From Betaproteobacteria bacterium (lineage in GTDB: Bacteria > Bdellovibrionota_B > Oligoflexia > Silvanigrellales > Silvanigrellaceae): a stretch of DNA of 64,000 nucleotides. The notes beneath the pieces were generated by a model, which was given only the letters and a program-made list of their open reading frames with translations, searched no databases and was not told where the DNA came from. The position numbers and the translations under genes are program-made. This document shows, piece by piece, positions 52,059-63,273 of the stretch. Numbering within the stretch: the stretch's first letter is position 1; the number at the start of each line of letters is the position of its first letter. Location of the stretch: assembly GCA_016868315.1 (NCBI GenBank), contig VGHE01000006.1:128797-192796 (forward strand), written 5' to 3'.

Positions 52059-53318
52059 TCAAGCGCGCCCAAGCTCAACGATGGTGTAATCTTTCTTGCC
52101 TTTCCGAATGAGTAGACCACCGCACTCGTGGTCAAAATCTTTGAGTTGCACCTTGTAGGCGACGTCGGTGCACTTCTCGCCATTGAGGAGAAGCCCGTTA
52201 CCCTGCACAATGCGGCGCGCATCACTCTTGCTCGGACACACACCGACCTTTGCCAAAAGCGAAATCACGTCGATACCAGCTTCGATTTCTGCGGCAGCGA
52301 TAGCCACGCGCGGTGCAGCAGAAAGGTCGCCGCCACCCTCGAAAAGAGCGCGTGCAGCAGCAAGCGCCTTGTCAGCTTCTTCCTGACCATGCACCAGCTG
52401 AGTGACCTCCCAAGCCAGACGCTCTTTGGCCTTGTTGGGATTGCTCTCTGGTGAACACAACTCGCGAATTTCAGAAAGTGGCAAAAACGTTAGCTGTCGC
52501 AGAGTCTGCTCAACATTTTCGTCGGGAATATTCCTCAAATACTGAAAGAAGTCGTAGGGCGAGGTCATCGATGGGTCGAGCCAAATGGCGTTCCCGGAGG
52601 TTTTTCCAAGCTTGCGACCCTGCGAATCAACAATCAGCGGCTGCGTAAAACAAAACGCCTGCTTATGCTCAACCCGACGAATCAGATCCACGCCCCCCAA
52701 AAGATTAGACCATTGGTCATTACCACCCGTTTGAAGGAGGCAATTGTGGGTTCGGAAGAGCTCCAAGAAGTCATACGACTGCAACAGCTGGTAGCCCATC
52801 TCCATGAAGGTCAAACCATGCTCGAGTCGTGATTTGTTCACATCCGCTGAGAGAAGTTTGGCAACCGTGAAGTGAACCCCGACATTGCGCGCGAAATCAA
52901 GCCAGCTCATAGGCCCAATCCAATCAATGTTGTTCACAAACAGCGGTGCATTCGGAACGTCGAATCGGAAATAGCGCTCCACGAGCTTCGTGAAGTTGGC
53001 AATGTATCCCTTAATGTCATCTTTGGTGTTCATGGGACGCATGTCGGTGCGCCCGGTGGGGTCACCAATCAGACCGGTCGCACCGCCAAAAAGCACAATA
53101 GGGCGCAGGCCGTGATCTTGGGCACGACGCAAACCCAGCAATGGCACCAAATGTCCGAGGGTAAGGCTTTTAGCCGTTGGATCGAAACCACAATACACAC
53201 CCGGATAAACACGAGGACTGCTTGCGGCCGCCGTTTGCAGCGACTGCACGAGCGCAGCGCCATCATTGGTCTGCTCAATCAGGCCGCGTTCTTGCATGTG
53301 TGTAAAAAAGTCCAACAT
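52059..53318 (-). CDS. tyrS: Tyrosyl-tRNA synthetase
   Basis: Class I synthetase, 419 residues. The HIGH-like SLTLGHLVPL, the KMSKS-like GRKLGKTSGN, LLQTGGNDQWSNLL and a C-terminal S4 domain (about 340-419) are visible. The ATG at 53318 follows GGGGAGAGG and fits the family length; an open frame extends upstream to 53498 without support. Charges tRNA-Tyr. It is divergent from the FliT-like gene across 227 bases, and convergent with ubiD. Confidence 0.96.
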   Translation of the reverse strand: MLDFFTHMQERGLIEQTNDGAALVQSLQTAAASSPRVYPGVYCGFDPTAKSLTLGHLVPLLGLRRAQDHGLRPIVLFGGATGLIGDPTGRTDMRPMNTKDDIKGYIANFTKLVERYFRFDVPNAPLFVNNIDWIGPMSWLDFARNVGVHFTVAKLLSADVNKSRLEHGLTFMEMGYQLLQSYDFLELFRTHNCLLQTGGNDQWSNLLGGVDLIRRVEHKQAFCFTQPLIVDSQGRKLGKTSGNAIWLDPSMTSPYDFFQYLRNIPDENVEQTLRQLTFLPLSEIRELCSPESNPNKAKERLAWEVTQLVHGQEEADKALAAARALFEGGGDLSAAPRVAIAAAEIEAGIDVISLLAKVGVCPSKSDARRIVQGNGLLLNGEKCTDVAYKVQLKDFDHECGGLLIRKGKKDYTIVELGRA

Positions 53319-53545
53319 CTTCCTCTCCCCAACACCACCTAGTTCCAACGACGTATCATTAATATCGAAGTCCATTCTTGGCAAAGCCGGCATTTTTTTC
53401 CGCAACCTGAAGCCCAAAAAATTGAACCTGAGCCCGATACGACAAGCTTTCTTTCTGCGCCTGTCGCACTTCTGACCCCCTGCAGAAATTGAGCTCATGT
53501 GAGTCGCCTGGATAGGTCATCCTCACACCGGAGGGTTCTGAACTC

Positions 53546-53983
53546 ATGAATCCGCAGGCGCTCGAGTCAGACTACATGACCCTGTGTCAGACGCTGGAAG
53601 CGAAGGTCACCGGGCTCGTAGCTCTTTGCCCTGCGATTCAAGGATTTTGGACTCTCTGGTGCAAGGAGCATCGGAACGTCGCGCAGGGCATGGGCTCGCG
53701 TGAGCTCAGCCAGAGCCGGAGTCAGGAAGCTGATCCACGCTGGGCGGAGTTCATGAAACGGCGACAACGGATGGTTTCGGCGCTTGGACAGGGTCTGAAG
53801 TCTTCAGGCACCTCCGAGGAACTGAGGCAATCTGTGCAACAGCTTCTTGCCGAACATGATCGGTGTTTTGTGGACTTGCTTCAGAAGGAATTGGAGCGAG
53901 TCAAAGTACAAATGACAGCCGCATTTGCAGTGAAACGAACAGTCTCTGCGTATGCACAAACGGCTCAATTCCGGGGAGAGTAG
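53546..53983 (+). CDS. Helical protein, FliT/FlgN-like length and pattern; function unknown
   Basis: 145 residues, almost entirely helical, with heptad-like spacing in the second half (about 85-140, LLAEHDRCFVDLLQKELERV). It has no signal peptide. Size, helical hairpin and the aromatic-ending last helix recall flagellar export chaperones of the FliT/FlgN type, but I see no sequence identity that proves it. It ends 2 bases before the glycosyltransferase-TPR gene. The ATG has GGAGGG 10 bases upstream. A role as chaperone for the downstream pair is inference. Confidence 0.7.
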   Translation: MNPQALESDYMTLCQTLEAKVTGLVALCPAIQGFWTLWCKEHRNVAQGMGSRELSQSRSQEADPRWAEFMKRRQRMVSALGQGLKSSGTSEELRQSVQQLLAEHDRCFVDLLQKELERVKVQMTAAFAVKRTVSAYAQTAQFRGE

Positions 53984-53985
53984 GG

Positions 53986-56160
53986 ATGCTGAAGGTGGAT
54001 AAGAAAAACCAGACGGCTCAGAAGGCAAACAGCGCTGCTGCCACTGCGGAGAAAAAGGATAACGGCCAGAAAAAAGCTGCTCCTGCACCTCGTCCCTCTA
54101 AGCTGGACACACTGAAGGTGAATCCAAATATCGACAAGCTTATCGACATCATCGAGCGCATGAAACAACATCCTGATCAGAGCCAACCAGCCAAGCAGAA
54201 TGCGAGCCGAGTGTCGCAGATGGGTAAGAAGGTAGCATTCGTTGCGCCGCTCCTGCCACACCACTGCGAGCTTGAGATCTGGAACGCGGTTGTGCGTGAA
54301 ACTGGCGTTTCGGGCGTCATTATTACTGCAAATCAGGAAGAGCGCTCGTTTCAAACTTTCGTTGAAACATGCAACCTGGCGAATATTCCAGTGGCGCTGA
54401 CCTGCAAAGCACTCGAAACAACCCTGGAAAACAAATCCTTCCTCGGTGGTCTCGAGAACGAAATCCGCGATGCGGAGGTCGTTGTTGCCGTGGGTGAAGC
54501 ATCTCTCTCAACTTATCAGGCACTCAAGGCGCGACGCTCGCTACAAAACAGACTGCTCGTCTGGCAAAACGCGCCCCGTCCTCCCGCAACTCTCGGTCTG
54601 TGGCGTGCGACCCCATTCGCTGCTCTCCCTCCGCAGATGACTCGCGAAAAAACCATCCGTCGTGAGGTTCTGAGAACCTGCGATGCAATCATTTCTCTCG
54701 ACAAGGAAGGTGCATCGTGGGCTTACCTTGAGGAGGTTAATCCTCAGCGTATCCGCCGCATCAACCGCGGAGTGAACACACAAATTTTCAATCTGGAAAA
54801 GTGGGATGCGAACAAACGAGACATCCGCAAGGCTCTCGGAATCGCAGCCAACGACTTCATCTTCCTCCAGACAGGACCATTGGAAGTCGACTCCGGAGCT
54901 CTTGATACAGTTTATGCATTCAAGAGTCTGCTGCAGAGCCACAATAAACTCGTCGGCAAGGTCAAGCTATTGTTCTGCAGCACGGGTTCCGCAAGTGCAG
55001 ATGTGCGCCAAGCGATTGTTGACCTGCAGATTGAAGACCATGTCTTCTTCCTAAACCCGAGCGATTCGGGCAACAAGCTGTTGGTCGGAAACCAGCTCTC
55101 ACCCTTGATTGCTGCGTGCGATGTTTTGATTCACAGCCCCGTTGCACCGAGCAACGGTAGTCCACATCGATTCCTCGACACCACCTACGACATCCTCTGT
55201 GGCATGGCTTGTGGCGTAACGATTGTGTCAAATGGCTTTGGTTGGGTTGGCGAATTTGCAGGCCGCTTCTACAAAACATTCGCAGGCGGCAACATCCACA
55301 GCCTTTCACGAACAATGTTTGAGTCGATCGAAAAACGTGAAAAGCTTACCAACGTCAGACGTGCAGCATTCAAGGCCGTTGAGAACGAACTCAACTTCCA
55401 ACAAGCTGCCGATGAATTTGGTAAAATTATTGTCAATGCACTTTCAGGACCGCAGCTGCAGGACAACAATTCAGCCGACGCAGTTTTCGACCAAATCGAA
55501 AAAACCATTCAGGGCAAGCAGTATCTTGATGCCATCGTTCTCATAAACAAAGCCTTTAGCATCAATGAAATTACCACCACACAGCGTGCGAACCTGTTCC
55601 GCCACATCGGCGACTGCTTCACCAAGCTCGGTGATCTGGAAAACGGCACAGCAAACTACACGCGCGCATTGGAACTTGATCCCTACTGTGCAAAATCACT
55701 GATTGGCCTTGGAACCATTGCTCTTCAGCAGCACAACTACAACGTTGCGGTTCCTCAATTCCAGAAGGCTGTAGGTCTCTCGCCCCGCGATGATATGGCT
55801 AGCCTTGGTCTGGGCCTCGCATTCGAAGGACTCGGTGAACTCGAGGAAGCACGCCGCTGGACAAGCCGCGCTTGCAATCTGAACATCGAGAACACAGTTG
55901 CGATCTTCAACTTGGTCAAGCTCGCTTACGACACAGAAGTTTTCGCTGAGGCAGAAGAGGTCGTTTCCCGCCACGTCGGCCAGCATCCGCACGATATCAA
56001 CATGATATTCACGCTCGGAGGACTCGCCTTCCGTGGAGGAAAATTCGATGAGGCAACTAAGCTCATGGAAAACATTCTGCTGCTTGACCCAATGAACAGC
56101 CGAGCACACGGATTGATCGCTCAGATTCAAAGAAAAAACGAGACTCGTCGCCAGGCCTGA
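53986..56160 (+). CDS. Family-4-type glycosyltransferase fused to TPR domain
   Basis: 724 residues from the ATG at 53986, 2 bases after the preceding stop. Residues 1-75 are Lys/Ala-rich and disordered. A GT-B glycosyltransferase part follows (about 77-525), with RINRGVNTQIF, NDFIFLQTGPLE and a FAGRFYKTFAGGN-like donor site region. TPR repeats occupy about 530-720, for example GDLENGTANYTRALELDP and GKFDEATKLMENILLLDP. Such fusions often glycosylate proteins, including flagellins. The acceptor is unknown. No sugar-nucleotide genes are adjacent except manA, 42 kb away. Confidence 0.85.
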   Translation: MLKVDKKNQTAQKANSAAATAEKKDNGQKKAAPAPRPSKLDTLKVNPNIDKLIDIIERMKQHPDQSQPAKQNASRVSQMGKKVAFVAPLLPHHCELEIWNAVVRETGVSGVIITANQEERSFQTFVETCNLANIPVALTCKALETTLENKSFLGGLENEIRDAEVVVAVGEASLSTYQALKARRSLQNRLLVWQNAPRPPATLGLWRATPFAALPPQMTREKTIRREVLRTCDAIISLDKEGASWAYLEEVNPQRIRRINRGVNTQIFNLEKWDANKRDIRKALGIAANDFIFLQTGPLEVDSGALDTVYAFKSLLQSHNKLVGKVKLLFCSTGSASADVRQAIVDLQIEDHVFFLNPSDSGNKLLVGNQLSPLIAACDVLIHSPVAPSNGSPHRFLDTTYDILCGMACGVTIVSNGFGWVGEFAGRFYKTFAGGNIHSLSRTMFESIEKREKLTNVRRAAFKAVENELNFQQAADEFGKIIVNALSGPQLQDNNSADAVFDQIEKTIQGKQYLDAIVLINKAFSINEITTTQRANLFRHIGDCFTKLGDLENGTANYTRALELDPYCAKSLIGLGTIALQQHNYNVAVPQFQKAVGLSPRDDMASLGLGLAFEGLGELEEARRWTSRACNLNIENTVAIFNLVKLAYDTEVFAEAEEVVSRHVGQHPHDINMIFTLGGLAFRGGKFDEATKLMENILLLDPMNSRAHGLIAQIQRKNETRRQA

Positions 56161-56199
56161 GTGCTGGCGTTCAGGCGGAAAAAAGGGAGGGGAGCAAAT

Positions 56200-56901
56200 A
56201 TGGCTGATGTGCGCATCAATGGACGACGTCTGGTTCTCCTGCAGCAGGAAAGAAACATCCAGTCGTTGGTCGACAAGCTCGACAACATGGCAACTAGAAG
56301 TAACAGCTGCCTCACGGCGCTTCACGTGAACGGCAACGAAATCGACCTCGACGACACCGCAACTATTGCTGGCTCTGAGCTCGGCGAAGCTGATGTTGTC
56401 GATGCTCGCATTGAAAACACGGCTCAACTGGCATTTGAAAGCCTCCAAGTCGCACAGGAGATGGCTGAGCTTTTGGTGTTCGATATTAAAGTCACCACAT
56501 TGAAGCTTTGGGACTCAAATACCTTTGCTGAAAAAGAGATGGACGCGCTGCTCAAGGACTGCCACACATTCCTCACACTTGGTGCTCATCCTCTCGACCT
56601 GCTGCAACGTTCACCTCTTGAGCTCAGCGCAACAGCACAAGAATGTTTGCGTGAGCTCGACAAAATTGCGCAGAACATTGAGGACGCAACCTTGCTGGCA
56701 GTTCACATGCAACTCAAAGACACCTGCCATGTGCTGGTCGGGCGCGTTATGCCGTGCATCGAGCGCTGGCTGGGTCTCACAGCTGCATTTGCCAAAGAGC
56801 TGGAAATCGACCGGCTTGAACGCCCGAACCTCGGAGAAGCTTCCGAAGTCGTGCCCTTTAGGCCTATTCCAGGCCAAGTACCCGTTATCGTAACGCGCTG
56901 A
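56200..56901 (+). CDS. Unknown two-domain protein (beta-grasp-like N-terminus)
   Basis: 233 residues. The ATG at 56200 follows GGGGAG. The first 85 residues alternate strands and one helix, with RINGRRLVLLQQERNIQSLV and LHVNGNEIDLD, in the order expected of a beta-grasp (ThiS- or ubiquitin-like) fold. No C-terminal Gly-Gly ends it. The remainder is helical (about 95-205) with conserved-looking Cys residues. The tail after 215 is Pro-rich. It is the third gene of the module and precedes a good terminator. I do not recognise a family. Confidence 0.7.
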   Translation: MADVRINGRRLVLLQQERNIQSLVDKLDNMATRSNSCLTALHVNGNEIDLDDTATIAGSELGEADVVDARIENTAQLAFESLQVAQEMAELLVFDIKVTTLKLWDSNTFAEKEMDALLKDCHTFLTLGAHPLDLLQRSPLELSATAQECLRELDKIAQNIEDATLLAVHMQLKDTCHVLVGRVMPCIERWLGLTAAFAKELEIDRLERPNLGEASEVVPFRPIPGQVPVIVTR

Positions 56902-56938
56902 TTTAGCAATAGTAAATTGAGCGCACAGGATGCAAGCG

Positions 56939-56968
56939 GGCTTCCTTGACGGGGAGCCTCTTTTTTTT
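56939..56968 (+). terminator. Rho-independent terminator after the glycosyltransferase module
   Basis: GGCTTCC (56939-56945) pairs with GGGAGCC (56952-56958), one wobble, around a TTGACG loop. TC and eight T follow (56961-56968). It ends the three-gene unit 53546-56901. Confidence 0.8.
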
Positions 56969-57018: not shown

Positions 57019-58140
57019 ATGCGTGTTGCTCTAAATTATATAAGGTTGCGCAGCCTGGCCAGCGCAGCAGCTGTTTGGACAGTTGCAGGCTCGAGCCATG
57101 GAGTCGCGGCAGAACTGCAGCGTGAATACGTGTCCGCTCCTCTGCTCGGATCCGGCAACGCGGGAACGACCGATGTCTACGGACTGGATTCATTGTTCTA
57201 TAACCCTGCCAACTTGGCGCGCACTCCGAAAGTTGTCGGTGATGTGGTTCTTGTCAGTCCTCACATCGAGGCGAGCCAGAATGGCTTGAGCCTTTATAAA
57301 GACATCCAGTCCAATAAAAACATGCTCGACGTTGTGGGTGGTGCGGTTGGACGCCCCGTTTCACTGGCGTTGCAAAACGCAACAGGTGCCAGCTTCCGAC
57401 GCACGGCGTTTGCGCTCTTCCAACGTGCTGATCTCGACATTGCGGTGAAGAATAATCCTATTTCGGGAATACCTGTTGCGACAGCGGCATCGGCAGTACG
57501 CGCAGGTGTCGCCTTCGGCCTCGGTCGCAGCTTTTCAGGGAATGCACTCCATTTCGGGGTTACGGGACTCATCGTTCAAAAGGCAGAGGCACAGCTCGAG
57601 GTGTCAGCACTCGATGCACAAACGAAACTCGGAAAATCGGGTGGCAAAAGTGTTTTGGATGATGCGGTAAAACGCGGCGTTGGTGTTGGTGCACATGCGA
57701 GTTTAATGCTCACCCCTGGTGGTGCATCTTCGCCTGAGTTTGTGCTCGTCGCGCGAAACCTGGGGTTAAGTTATGGCGTCGGCGGCAAACCCTCGAGTGA
57801 GCAACCCAGTGCTGAAATCCAGACCATAGATTTCGGATTTTCACTCCAACCAGGTACAAAAAAAAGCCGCTCGAGAATCTCACTCGACCTCGACGACGTA
57901 CTCAACAAATCAAAGCAGAATATCTACAAAAGACTACACATGGGCGCGGAAGTTACATTCTCCGAGATTCTTGGTGTCCTTGGTGGATTGAATCAAGGTT
58001 ATTCGACCTACGGCATCTTCATCAACAGCAAAATTATTCGTATCGACGCAGGTCTCTTTGCTGAGGAGATGGGAAAATATCCAGGTGATAGCAAAAACCG
58101 AAGTTACTACGGACGCGTCAGCGTGGGGTGGGCGAAATGA
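57019..58140 (+). CDS. Predicted outer-membrane beta-barrel (FadL/PorV-like)
   Basis: 373 residues. A signal peptide ends near HGVAAE. The N-terminus GSGNAGTTDVYGLDSLFYNPANLA is the hallmark seen in FadL/PorV-type barrels, where a hatch region precedes the strands. Alternating polar and hydrophobic strands continue to the C-terminus, which ends SVGWAK rather than a terminal Phe. Likely an outer-membrane channel or docking protein. It overlaps the downstream lipoprotein by 4 bases, suggesting joint function. Confidence 0.78.
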   Translation: MRVALNYIRLRSLASAAAVWTVAGSSHGVAAELQREYVSAPLLGSGNAGTTDVYGLDSLFYNPANLARTPKVVGDVVLVSPHIEASQNGLSLYKDIQSNKNMLDVVGGAVGRPVSLALQNATGASFRRTAFALFQRADLDIAVKNNPISGIPVATAASAVRAGVAFGLGRSFSGNALHFGVTGLIVQKAEAQLEVSALDAQTKLGKSGGKSVLDDAVKRGVGVGAHASLMLTPGGASSPEFVLVARNLGLSYGVGGKPSSEQPSAEIQTIDFGFSLQPGTKKSRSRISLDLDDVLNKSKQNIYKRLHMGAEVTFSEILGVLGGLNQGYSTYGIFINSKIIRIDAGLFAEEMGKYPGDSKNRSYYGRVSVGWAK

Positions 58141-58841
58141 GAATGCTAACGATCAGCATTGCGGCCTGCATGTTTCTGAGTTCAGCACAATTTATTGTTG
58201 CATGCGGGAGCGGAAACGTCTTCGAAAAGGCTGTTCAGCGCAGCGAGGCCGAAAAAGCACAAGCAGCGCTTGAATCCGGTGACGTCGATTCGGCAATTTC
58301 CACTCTGGAAGAATATCTCAAGAACAACCCAAACGATTCCGCTGCGCGTTCAATGCTGGCCAATGCATATCTTAAGAAGTCTGGTGTTGACCTGCTTAAG
58401 ATTGGCAGCTCGGTATCAAGTGGCACAGAGGGCAAATCGGATTGGTCGACTGTCAGTGGCGTGCTCCCCAGCGGCACAGCTGCCAATGTGGACAATATGA
58501 AGGCCGCAGTTGATGCTCTGAAAAGCATTCCTCCAGCGCAACGAACCGACGAACAAAATTACCAACTTGCAATTGCGCAAACAACACTTGCAATAACGGT
58601 TGCAAAGAAGGCCTCTGGCGACGAAAGTGGCCAGCTCACCGATGAGAAAGTCGATCAGATGAGTGACAGCGACGCAATGACGATCTACAACGCTCTTCAG
58701 GGAAGCAAAGAGGCTTCAGGAGCGATGCAGACTCCGAATGATGGGCTGAGCAAAGTCGGTTCTTTTGCCGACAAGGTCGAACAGCAACCGGGCAGCACAC
58801 CTGAAGAACGCTTGCGAAACTTTTTGAAGTCACAAAACTGA
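58137..58841 (+). CDS. TPR-containing lipoprotein, coupled to the barrel gene
   Basis: 234 residues. ATG at 58137 overlaps the barrel stop (ATGA); GTG at 58128 and ATG at 58143 are alternatives. A signal peptide with lipobox (FIVACG) is followed by a TPR-like pair (AALESGDVDSAISTLEEYL and NNPNDSAARSMLANAYLKK, about 35-85). A low-complexity Ser/Thr stretch and further helices come next. By pattern it is a BamD-like or pilotin-like accessory, but not assigned. It lies 12 bases before the amidase gene. Confidence 0.78.
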   Translation: MRMLTISIAACMFLSSAQFIVACGSGNVFEKAVQRSEAEKAQAALESGDVDSAISTLEEYLKNNPNDSAARSMLANAYLKKSGVDLLKIGSSVSSGTEGKSDWSTVSGVLPSGTAANVDNMKAAVDALKSIPPAQRTDEQNYQLAIAQTTLAITVAKKASGDESGQLTDEKVDQMSDSDAMTIYNALQGSKEASGAMQTPNDGLSKVGSFADKVEQQPGSTPEERLRNFLKSQN

Positions 58842-59736: not shown

Positions 59737-60876
59737 TCAGGTACAGGTCCGAGCCAACAGGTTCCCACTAATCTCAACTTCCATTTTTCCATCAACGAAC
59801 TTCGCTGGGTCGCAGCCCATACTCACAGGGAGAATGGTTTTATAATTCTCCTCAAGCTTACCTTTGAGAGAGAGTCCGAGGTTAAGCTTCACGTCGGTCA
59901 CATCCATCATGTCAGATATGCTCAAACGACCCGACAGATTCAAACCCAAATCAGTTGCAATAAACTTGGTCTCTGGAAGAATGTCGAGCGACTTCTTAGC
60001 CAGCTTTATTTTGATGCGAGCGTCGGTGAAATCCTGACGCGGAATGGGCAGAGTCTCATTCTTCATTTCCAGGTAAGCCTTCTGAATCTTCAGATCGACA
60101 TCTGCATTGAGCTTCTCGAGTGAATCAGTTGTGGCGTTCATGTCAACCTTTAATTTACCGTTGAGCTGGCCACCAATTTCAGTGCTGAGAAACGGAAGAA
60201 TGGTCTGCAATGAGGGGTCGTTGCTTGTGCGGTAGTAGGTCATGAAGTTGCTGACCAGTGGCCGCAAATCGAAGCGCACAAAATCCAATTCAACCGTGCC
60301 CTTTGGAATCATCATTGCGCGCCGAGAGTTCCCCAGGGAAATAAGATCAGCTATGCCATGACTGGTTTCAAGTTCAAAGTTTCCACCCGACTGCTCAACA
60401 CGAACCTGTGCAGATAACTTGCCCACAAACAATGACAGCGGCGAGAGTGATACAGTCGCTTTACCGAGTTTGAGCACCGATGATGGGTCGTTCACATTGG
60501 TGAATTGGATGTCCTCAAAGCTCAAACCCACAGGCAACTTTATTTTGAAGTTTCCGACGGTCAGACGGAGCCGCACGGAATTTTGCATGAACGTATCGTT
60601 CACTTTCCCAATCAGCACTTCTTTAACCACATTGAATGGAAAAGACAGATACAGAAAAAGAATAAAGGAAGACAACCCGACCAGAGAGTATGTCAGAATT
60701 GTCTTGAGTCGTCGCCCCTTCTTAACGCGCGGCGACGTATTGTCGACCCACACATCAGACGAAAAAAGACTCGTTTTTCGACCAACGGTAGAGGGGACCT
60801 CTTCCGATTCATCCTCGGGTCTGAGGACAGGCATATCCTCGACTATCAGACTGCTGCGCCGCTGCGACTTGTCCAT
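59737..60876 (-). CDS. gspN: Type II secretion system protein GspN
   Basis: 379 residues. An acidic N-terminal cytoplasmic part (about 1-55) precedes a transmembrane helix (about 60-82, LKTILTYSLVGLSSFILFLY) and a long beta-rich periplasmic domain (AsmA/GspN-like) with repeated strands such as VRLRLTVGNFKIKLP. This is the GspN form of delta-proteobacteria and relatives. It lies 17 bases after gspM. GspN is an accessory part of the inner-membrane assembly. Confidence 0.88.
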   Translation of the reverse strand: MDKSQRRSSLIVEDMPVLRPEDESEEVPSTVGRKTSLFSSDVWVDNTSPRVKKGRRLKTILTYSLVGLSSFILFLYLSFPFNVVKEVLIGKVNDTFMQNSVRLRLTVGNFKIKLPVGLSFEDIQFTNVNDPSSVLKLGKATVSLSPLSLFVGKLSAQVRVEQSGGNFELETSHGIADLISLGNSRRAMMIPKGTVELDFVRFDLRPLVSNFMTYYRTSNDPSLQTILPFLSTEIGGQLNGKLKVDMNATTDSLEKLNADVDLKIQKAYLEMKNETLPIPRQDFTDARIKIKLAKKSLDILPETKFIATDLGLNLSGRLSISDMMDVTDVKLNLGLSLKGKLEENYKTILPVSMGCDPAKFVDGKMEVEISGNLLARTCT

Positions 60877-60893
60877 AAGGAATCCCCAGAATG

Positions 60894-61571
60894 TTATTTT
60901 TTAGATTCAAATCCATCGACCGCAAAGGAGGCATCAAAAAACAATTTGTTTTGGTAGAGCCCTTTGACGCGCAAATCATTCACTCGAAGTAACTTTTTGT
61001 TATCTGATTCAACTGCAACAACAAAATCGATGATTTTTCTCAAGCTCACGTTGGAAACACGAAACTCAGCTCGCGTTGACTTATATTTATCCTTCAGAGG
61101 GCTTTCACGAACGAAATCTTTTTCGTTGGAGGGTTTGTCATTCTTGTTGTTACCGCTGATCTGCAATTCAAGAGATTTAGCCTTATCCTCGAGGAGCGTA
61201 AAAATCTGAGTCCCCTGGGTCGCATCCTCAATGCGGCGATCCAGCTCTTCAAATTTCTTCTTCGTGATCTCATACTCGACCCTTTTTACACGAAGCTTAT
61301 TTACAGCTAGAAACGACTCATCCAACCGTGCCTGCAATCCACTCAGCGCGCTCAGATAGAGAGCAATGAATCCTGTGACTAGAAGGATTGCAAAAAGAAT
61401 ACCTCCTGCTACTACAGCCGTGCGACCCTCCGGAGGAAGCTTAAAATAGCTATCCATGAAGTATTCAATGCGTTCATTTTGCTTGCCAAAAACAAACTCG
61501 CGCACGGGAAGCAGCCAGCGTGGAATGCCGTTCTGTGAACCATCTTGAAGTTCGGCAGCTTCGGTATTCAT
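60894..61571 (-). CDS. gspM: Type II secretion system protein GspM
   Basis: 225 residues. A cytoplasmic N-terminus with FMDSYFKLPPEGRT, a transmembrane helix (about 50-72, AVVAGGILFAILLVTGFIAL), a coiled-coil (about 75-130) and a small alpha-beta domain fit GspM, the PilO counterpart. The start overlaps nothing: the gspL stop is 1 base upstream, with GAGGTG 7 bases before the ATG. Follows gspL and precedes gspN. Confidence 0.88.
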   Translation of the reverse strand: MNTEAAELQDGSQNGIPRWLLPVREFVFGKQNERIEYFMDSYFKLPPEGRTAVVAGGILFAILLVTGFIALYLSALSGLQARLDESFLAVNKLRVKRVEYEITKKKFEELDRRIEDATQGTQIFTLLEDKAKSLELQISGNNKNDKPSNEKDFVRESPLKDKYKSTRAEFRVSNVSLRKIIDFVVAVESDNKKLLRVNDLRVKGLYQNKLFFDASFAVDGFESKK

Positions 61572-61572
61572 A

Positions 61573-63273
61573 TCAGTTCACCTCTTTAATGTTTGCACTG
61601 ATGCTGAACTTAACTTTATCAGAGCCCGGAATGCGTTCGGGGTCGTTCATTTTTATGCCCTGAAGACTCTGAATATTTTTGACCAGGGACTCAATTTTAT
61701 CTGCAGTCGCCAGATCGACCGTTTCACCTTCTATAGTCACTGCTCCTGTAGAGCGGACGTGAAAGTTGGTCAGATCCAACGTGATAGTTTTATCGATTCC
61801 CTCAGAAACATCTTTCAATACTTTCAGGGGCACAGCGCTCTTCATTCCGATGAAACTGTCAATAGCTATCTTCTTCTGCTTGGAGTCTTCATCCATGAGC
61901 TGAAAAGCTTTGTCTGAATAGCGTTTCAAACTCCAATTGCGCTCGGCTGAAATATTTTTCAAAGCTGCCGGCTCATCTCCCAAAGTGGTTCTAATCTCTT
62001 TTTGGAACTGCTTTTTGAGCGCTTCAATTTGATCTGTGTAGAGCCACCAACGCAAGCCATAGCTTCCCGCAAGGCAAAGCACGAGTCCTACTGTTAACAA
62101 TGTTATGTTTGAAATCTGTTTGAAGACGGCGTCGTAACTTCCAACGAGAGCCAGTTCGCCCTTTCGCAGGTTAATCTGCGACTGAGTCTTGTTCGGCACA
62201 CCCCGCAATGCGATAGCTAATGCCTGGGATAGAATCGGCGTCCGCTCTGCATCTCCATCGTCAATCATCAGCCGTTCAGCATCGAAGCTCAAAAGCTTGA
62301 TAGGTAGCTCTATTGAATCGTTCAGAAAGGGAACAATATTCCGAATACACGCTGTTCCACCAGTCACAAGGATTTGAGACGGTACCAGTCTCTCTTGCGC
62401 CTTGAAGGAATGGAGTGTGCGGATGATTTCCTTGACAAGGTCTGTCGCTGCCAAGCCCATTTGTTGCGCAACCAAGAACTCCTGCTCTCTGCCGGGCATG
62501 GGCTTCGCATCGGGCTTATATTCAAGGTAGCTGACAGTGTGCTTTAGGCGTTGTGCCTCGCCATACGTGACATCGAGTCCCTTGGCGAGCATTTCGGTAA
62601 TGTAACGACCACCCATCCGAATTGTACGAGCCGAGACAAACCTGTTGTTGTTCACAAGTATCATTGCTGTCTTCATGTGGCCGATATCGAGAATCAGCTT
62701 ACAATCCTCACCGTAGTCATGAATCGGCAGACGGTTTTCCTCGCTCACCTCAGTCTGCAGAGGGATTTCCGACTCCACGAACGGCATGATGTTCATAAAT
62801 GTCAGGTAGTCGACGTCGATTACTTTGGGTTCGAGTTCGAGTTCCTTCAGCGCATTAAGGAAGGCCTCGATGTTTTCCTTGCGACACATCGCAGACAGGA
62901 CACTTGTCGTGCCATTCACCGACTCTAGAACCTGTTGGTCGATGATGCTTTCCTCGAGGCTGAACGGCGCACTTGCCTCGAGCTCATTCTCGACAACAAG
63001 CGGAACGTCACGCTTTTTTACATTTTGAAAGCTGAACGTTCTAGTCGAGACCATCAACCCGTTCATGGCGGTGAAGATTCGGTCGACCTCAATCGAATTT
63101 TCATTAAATAGCTGACGAATCGCTGTGTACTCGACCAGCTCAGGATCCAGTCCCTCAATTTCAGGGACGGCGACTTCATAGAAGCGCTCCACCTTGTATG
63201 CATTGAAGGTGTGCGTAATCTCGAGCGCCTTGATGCTGTAGCTACCAAAATCGAGACCTAATATTTTTTGCAT
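61573..63273 (-). CDS. gspL: Type II secretion protein GspL, PilM-plus-PilN type
   Basis: 566 residues. The first 330 form a PilM-like actin fold with nucleotide blocks LGLDFGSYSIKALE (5-18), LILDIGHMKTAMIL (193-206) and LVTGGTACIR (312-321). An INLR motif (367-370) matching the INLLP tail of PilN follows, then a transmembrane helix (about 388-412) and a coiled-coil and alpha-beta domain, the PilN-like part. In T2SS, GspL links the GspE ATPase to the platform. Here the whole PilM-N pair is fused in one chain. It is divergent from the proline-rich protein. Confidence 0.9.
   Translation of the reverse strand: MQKILGLDFGSYSIKALEITHTFNAYKVERFYEVAVPEIEGLDPELVEYTAIRQLFNENSIEVDRIFTAMNGLMVSTRTFSFQNVKKRDVPLVVENELEASAPFSLEESIIDQQVLESVNGTTSVLSAMCRKENIEAFLNALKELELEPKVIDVDYLTFMNIMPFVESEIPLQTEVSEENRLPIHDYGEDCKLILDIGHMKTAMILVNNNRFVSARTIRMGGRYITEMLAKGLDVTYGEAQRLKHTVSYLEYKPDAKPMPGREQEFLVAQQMGLAATDLVKEIIRTLHSFKAQERLVPSQILVTGGTACIRNIVPFLNDSIELPIKLLSFDAERLMIDDGDAERTPILSQALAIALRGVPNKTQSQINLRKGELALVGSYDAVFKQISNITLLTVGLVLCLAGSYGLRWWLYTDQIEALKKQFQKEIRTTLGDEPAALKNISAERNWSLKRYSDKAFQLMDEDSKQKKIAIDSFIGMKSAVPLKVLKDVSEGIDKTITLDLTNFHVRSTGAVTIEGETVDLATADKIESLVKNIQSLQGIKMNDPERIPGSDKVKFSISANIKEVN

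Follow-up and report, generated by a model that had tools for sequence, protein, structure and literature searches.

A Conserved Three-Gene Locus Encoding a Predicted Glycosyltransferase-TPR Fusion Protein Co-occurs with Flagellin

Gene Content of the Locus

The window analyzed here, a 64,000-nucleotide stretch of a 3.2 Mb genome, contained a run of three genes (the trio g1, g2, and g3) on the forward strand. The first, g1 (53546..53983, +), encoded a protein of 145 aa that was FliT/FlgN-like in its length, its position, and a weak profile score. It was followed by g2 (53986..56160, +), which encoded a 724-aa glycosyltransferase (GT)-TPR protein, as indicated by Pfam and by structure comparison of the predicted model; its predicted parts were a low-confidence N-terminus (residues 1-79), a GT4-type GT-B domain (about 80-489), and a TPR array (about 497-720). 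The third gene, g3 (56200..56901, +), encoded a 233-aa protein that was predicted to consist of a beta-grasp-like head (1-73) and a four-helix bundle (74-200), with a tail (212-233) that formed a low-confidence part of the model. The stop of g1 and the ATG of g2 (53986) were 2 bases apart, and the stop of g2 and the own ATG of g3 (56200) were 39 bases apart, as a first-pass annotation of this DNA had described for the open reading frames of the run. The terminator that it had placed behind the run was also found, as an intrinsic-terminator-like hairpin with a 9-pair stem and a T run behind it (56938..56959, +). This hairpin was the strongest among the 9 terminator-like sites of the window, for which shuffles expect 4.5. 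Orthologues within the genus shared identities of 51-59% for g1, 83-89% for g2, and 69-79% for g3. Because these orthologues exist and the gene order was constant wherever the family locus was assembled, g1, g2, and g3 are considered real genes. A search of NCBIfam returned no name for any of them.

Conservation of Gene Order and Surroundings

Within the family, the three genes were adjacent, in constant order and on the same strand, in all 11 relatives with an assembled locus (G001-G004, G006-G010, G012, and G013), and two further genomes (G005 and G011) contained g1 and the beginning of g2 at a contig end. Adjacency was thus retained in relatives, as expected of the module that the first-pass annotation had proposed. 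A phylum sample of 58 genomes was searched with g2 and g3 profiles, and homologues of both occurred throughout the sample in the same order, g1-g2-g3. The distant g3 matches, with identities across the class of 12-20%, were located just downstream of g2 and on its strand. Nearly all of the 20 class loci that were read had g2 and g3 directly preceded by a small gene of about 125 aa; by position, these small genes correspond to g1, with identities of 9-17%.

Most of the 20 class loci contained gspJ, gspK, g9 (PilM/GspL-like), g8, and g7 (GspN-like) directly upstream of the trio and on the same strand, the names gspJ and gspK being assigned from position and sequence appearance. In the window, the type II secretion system (T2SS) genes g7, g8 (in the GspM position), and g9 were found about 3 kb downstream of the trio, inverted and in convergent orientation (59737..63273, -), which is a rearranged form of the class neighborhood. 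In genus g5, the trio was oriented divergently from two genes, one thyX-like and one for flagellin, and was located away from the T2SS genes. In the genus of the window, it came after genes for an AI-2E-type permease and UbiD. A tyrosyl-tRNA synthetase (TyrS) gene (52059-53498) separated UbiD from g1 in the window; in two congeners (L016 and L017), g1 directly followed UbiD with no TyrS gene between them, and the TyrS gene was therefore moved in or rearranged in the window lineage. Downstream of the trio came a gene pair (57019-58841) whose products were a protein of 373 aa that belongs to no known family and a TPR protein of 237 aa; it was followed by a carbon-nitrogen hydrolase gene, and the pair was kept behind the trio within the genus. 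In several class loci, another TPR protein, about 410-450 aa long, was encoded near g3 (L103:2448-3806, and similarly in L104, L117, and L118). No sugar-biosynthesis genes were seen adjoining the trio.

The Small Proteins g1 and g3

Neither g1 nor g3 reached any Pfam cut-off, in agreement with the first-pass annotation, which had recognized no family for either. For g1, the FliT family (PF05400) scored 14.7 bits in the window copy vs. a cut-off of 29.5. FliT was the recurring sub-threshold Pfam family, appearing in 5 of the 11 g1 members, with 19.8 bits in the best class member and E-values of 0.0015, 0.012, 0.11, and 0.18 in class members and 0.056 in the window g1. A search of PDB sequences with the g1 profile gave chance-level matches only. 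The earlier description of g1 as a FliT/FlgN-style protein is consistent with the recurrence of FliT at E-values of 0.0015 to 0.18, but the cut-off was reached by none of the members, and the resemblance is a weak one.

For g3, no relative was found in Pfam, NCBIfam, or the PDB sequences, where a profile search gave chance-level matches only. The predicted model had a mean pLDDT of 83. In residues 1-73, the order of the elements fits beta-beta-alpha-beta-beta-alpha-beta (pLDDT blocks of 76-88), and the fold search was filled by bundle matches. Four long helices follow this head in the model, and the matches of the bundle were generic helical bundles (FAT domains and designed bundles) with Z-scores of 11-13, in the uninformative range. 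In its order of elements, the predicted structure is compatible with the ubiquitin-like N-terminus and helical body that had been proposed from the sequence. The idea that g3 substitutes for FliS was considered and rejected, as FliS was present in 48 of the 58 genomes alongside g3.

The Glycosyltransferase and TPR Parts of g2

The TPRs of g2 scored far above the Pfam cut-off. The GT4 signal stayed below the cut-off in the window copy (E = 0.019) but exceeded it in a relative from the class (E = 1.7e-11); the Maf domain (PF01973) was not among the Pfam matches. The predicted model of g2 had moderate pLDDT in the GT half and good pLDDT in the TPR half. Residues 79-489 of the model matched the GT4 structures of BshA (Z = 25.3), MshA (24.4), HepE (24.3), and WaaG (23); the match with BshA (6n1x) covered residues 79-488, with 350 aligned residues and an rmsd of 3.9 in a part where the model is only moderate. 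Residues 482-724 of the model matched consensus TPR and O-GlcNAc transferase TPR superhelices with Z-scores of about 20. Pfam and the structural matches agree, therefore, that g2 is probably a GT4-type GT-B fold joined to a TPR array, as the first-pass annotation had read it.

The donor site of this predicted fold departs from that of GT4 enzymes. In a profile alignment, the G-R..K-G loop of MshA corresponded to G-P/S..S-G in the order and mostly to G-Q..E-x in the class, and the diphosphate-binding arginine and lysine of the loop were not conserved in the g2 sequences aligned to MshA. The arginine column contained P298 in the window, P or S in the order, and Q, P, or N in the class, and the lysine column contained S303 in the window, S or A in the order, and 19 E and 1 K in the class. 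The columns of the E-X7-E motif were L397 and C405 in the window; E, D, or Y was found at the first place in the class, where the alignment of the first glutamate is uncertain, and the glutamate of the second place was absent throughout the order and class sequences aligned. Contacts to the nucleotide in WaaG come from a lysine and a glutamate (PMC10579960), and these residues appear to correspond to the g2 columns compared here. Either the donor site of g2 has been remodeled or catalysis has been lost.

Identity between the order and the class was 23% in the GT half and 46% in the TPR half, which indicates weaker constraint on the GT half of g2. In the class, the GT domains kept a distinct set of invariant polar residues, such as G-K-H-R-x-D-F/Y. 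In G020 (L154:1132-2346), a g2 homologue with the GT domain had lost the whole TPR array and was still located between g1 and g3, and the GT domain therefore seems to be selected in its own right; the converse reading of this short gene, that it had lost the GT domain, was rejected. In two flagellated genomes, G022 (L133:7557-8667) and G014 (L027:9301-10382), g1 and g3 were adjacent with no g2 between them.

Co-occurrence with Flagellin

Flagellin_N was detected in 50 of the 58 genomes and was missing from eight (G015, G016, G019, G023, G037, G038, G039, and G040), which represent seven genera in four families; one of these, family f4, includes both flagellated and non-flagellated genera. A g2 match at the strict threshold was found in 44 genomes, and g3 was found in 46. 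Flagellin was present in every one of them (44/44 and 46/46, respectively), and both g2 and g3 were missing from all eight flagellin-less genomes (Fisher p = 1.6e-6 for g2 and 2.6e-7 for g3, n = 58, with relatedness ignored). FliS was missing from the same eight genomes. At least part of the trio was present in 48 of the 50 flagellated genomes, and the other two (G042 and G025) had no assembled locus: the trio locus of G042 runs off the contig, and G025 yielded no match even for g9. In G017, the end of g2 was located at a contig edge and fell below the strict count.

The T2SS gene g9 was present in all eight flagellin-less genomes. Their T2SS loci were read and contained no g2 or g3 behind the T2SS genes, G016 and G019 having little sequence past them. 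Because g9 was kept while g2 and g3 were gone, the trio follows the flagellum and not its T2SS neighbors. The first-pass annotation had also allowed for pilin or another surface protein as the acceptor, and this distribution, which tracks flagellin and not the adjoining T2SS gene, speaks against it; the flagellar link that it had proposed is, in turn, strongly suggested by the co-occurrence. The trio is very probably tied to the flagellum, and its flagellar role is well supported by correlation. This co-occurrence is correlational, and the trio may have been lost in the course of a wholesale reduction. The flagellin-less genome G038 contained a 94-aa g1-like remnant behind its T2SS genes (L130:7001-7285).

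The Maf domain (PF01973) was found in only three of the 58 genomes and was absent from the window genome, which leaves the role of a flagellin modifier vacant. Genome G000 contained eight Flagellin_N matches, several of which were flagellin genes scattered singly or in pairs and not in a single cluster. A gene of about 300 aa was located beside fliD on the opposite strand (L164:4697-5635, L165:4089-5006, L167:3669-4598, and L168:8093-9004); it was conserved across class loci and, in three of these four, separated fliC from fliD.

Proposed Role and Alternatives

The leading account, to which we give about an even chance, is that the class-wide trio glycosylates flagellin before export. The trio would be a flagellar accessory module that acts in the cytoplasm on flagellin or another exported filament subunit. 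The C-terminal TPR array of g2 would recognize the subunit, and its N-terminal GT4-fold domain would most likely attach a sugar; g1 would escort that subunit or a partner of it in the manner of FliT, and g3 might be a structural adaptor that brings the modified subunit to g1 and g2 or to the export gate. In Caulobacter crescentus, FlmG is a TPR and GT-B fusion that binds and glycosylates several flagellins in the cytoplasm, with the TPR part as the flagellin binder (PMC7591256), and in Aeromonas a glycosyltransferase hands flagellin over to a chaperone before export (PMC4065374). The glycosylation account leads because the ingredients of the trio match these schemes and the genomes concerned contain several flagellin-type genes and hardly any Maf. 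Against it stand the loss of the GT4 donor-site signature, the lower constraint on the GT half, the two lineages with g1 and g3 but no adjacent g2, and the lack of sugar-biosynthesis genes seen by the trio. We know of no flagellin glycan in these organisms, and the literature searched contained no paper on flagellin glycosylation in Oligoflexia, no listed title about this module, and no described system with this gene set. Of the dedicated protein-glycosylation system envisaged in the first-pass annotation, the flagellar link was thus retained, but glycosylation itself is set back by the donor site and by the two lineages without an adjacent g2. Tentatively, g2 may found a new flagellin-modifying family, with a GT4-derived domain, a remodeled donor site, a flagellin-binding TPR array, and two partners, that replaces Maf class-wide.

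The main rival of this account takes g2 to be a pseudo-glycosyltransferase: its GT-B part would now serve for binding or as a scaffold, and the trio would form a flagellar chaperone or handover complex for flagellin or for cap- or hook-associated proteins. The donor-site residues were gone in all sequences examined, the TPR half was more strongly conserved, and g1 and g3 persisted in G022 and G014. On the other hand, the invariant polar residues of the class GT domains and the retention of the GT domain in G020 point to a conserved ligand or catalytic site, and we consider this reading unlikely. Glycosylation of another flagellar acceptor, such as the FliD cap, a hook-associated protein, or a sheath protein, is improbable. 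FliT escorts FliD in enterobacteria and g1 resembles it, and no separate FliT-like gene was located directly beside fliD-fliS in the loci examined; however, the trio adjoins a flagellin gene in genus g5, and flagellin is the target of the GT-TPR and Maf systems that are known (PMC7591256, PMC4065374).

The position of the trio directly downstream of gspJ-K-L-M-N in most class loci prompted a further reading, in which it modifies or escorts pseudopilins or secreted proteins of the T2SS or a pilus. This very improbable role was rejected because the flagellin-less genomes keep the T2SS without g2 and g3, and the trio of genus g5 stands apart from T2SS genes. That three unrelated housekeeping genes are adjacent by chance is scarcely credible: g1 and g3 belong to no known family and g2 can be lost while they remain, but the order is class-wide and constant through rearranged surroundings, and all three genes share the flagellin-linked distribution, except for the g1 remnant of G038.

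Several model species depend on flagellin glycosylation to assemble their filaments, and most of what is known about it comes from Maf and a small number of other enzymes. In a class with several flagellin-type genes per genome and almost no Maf, a conserved GT-TPR module that vanishes with flagellin is a candidate for an independent system that can be tested directly. If g2 is non-catalytic, a GT-fold protein that has turned into a flagellar chaperone or scaffold would also be unusual.

Comparison with Known Systems

Maf is the usual flagellin glycosyltransferase and shares with g2 the proposed role in the cytoplasm, but it belongs to another family and is rare in the sample. The likeness of g1 to FliT/FlgN consists of its small size, a C-terminal segment ending in A-Y, and the sub-threshold FliT scores, whereas its scores stay below the Pfam cut-off and its 145 aa include an insertion in the order. 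O-GlcNAc transferase and SPINDLY (GT41) combine a TPR superhelix with a GT-B fold, as g2 is predicted to do; in GT41, however, the TPR is at the N-terminus, and the other domain of g2 is GT4-like. The GT4 enzymes BshA, MshA, HepE, WaaG, and PimA/B' share the GT-B fold with residues 79-489 of g2 (Z = 20-25, with a profile alignment to MshA), but g2 lacks their conserved donor-site arginine and lysine and the E-X7-E glutamates, and is fused to TPRs. The nearest known system is FlmG, which likewise joins a TPR array and a GT-B fold in one polypeptide and comes from a genome that encodes several flagellins and lacks Maf. It is set against the trio by its domain order, with the TPR first and the GT last, whereas g2 has the GT4-like domain first and the TPR array last, and by the partner genes g1 and g3 that accompany g2.
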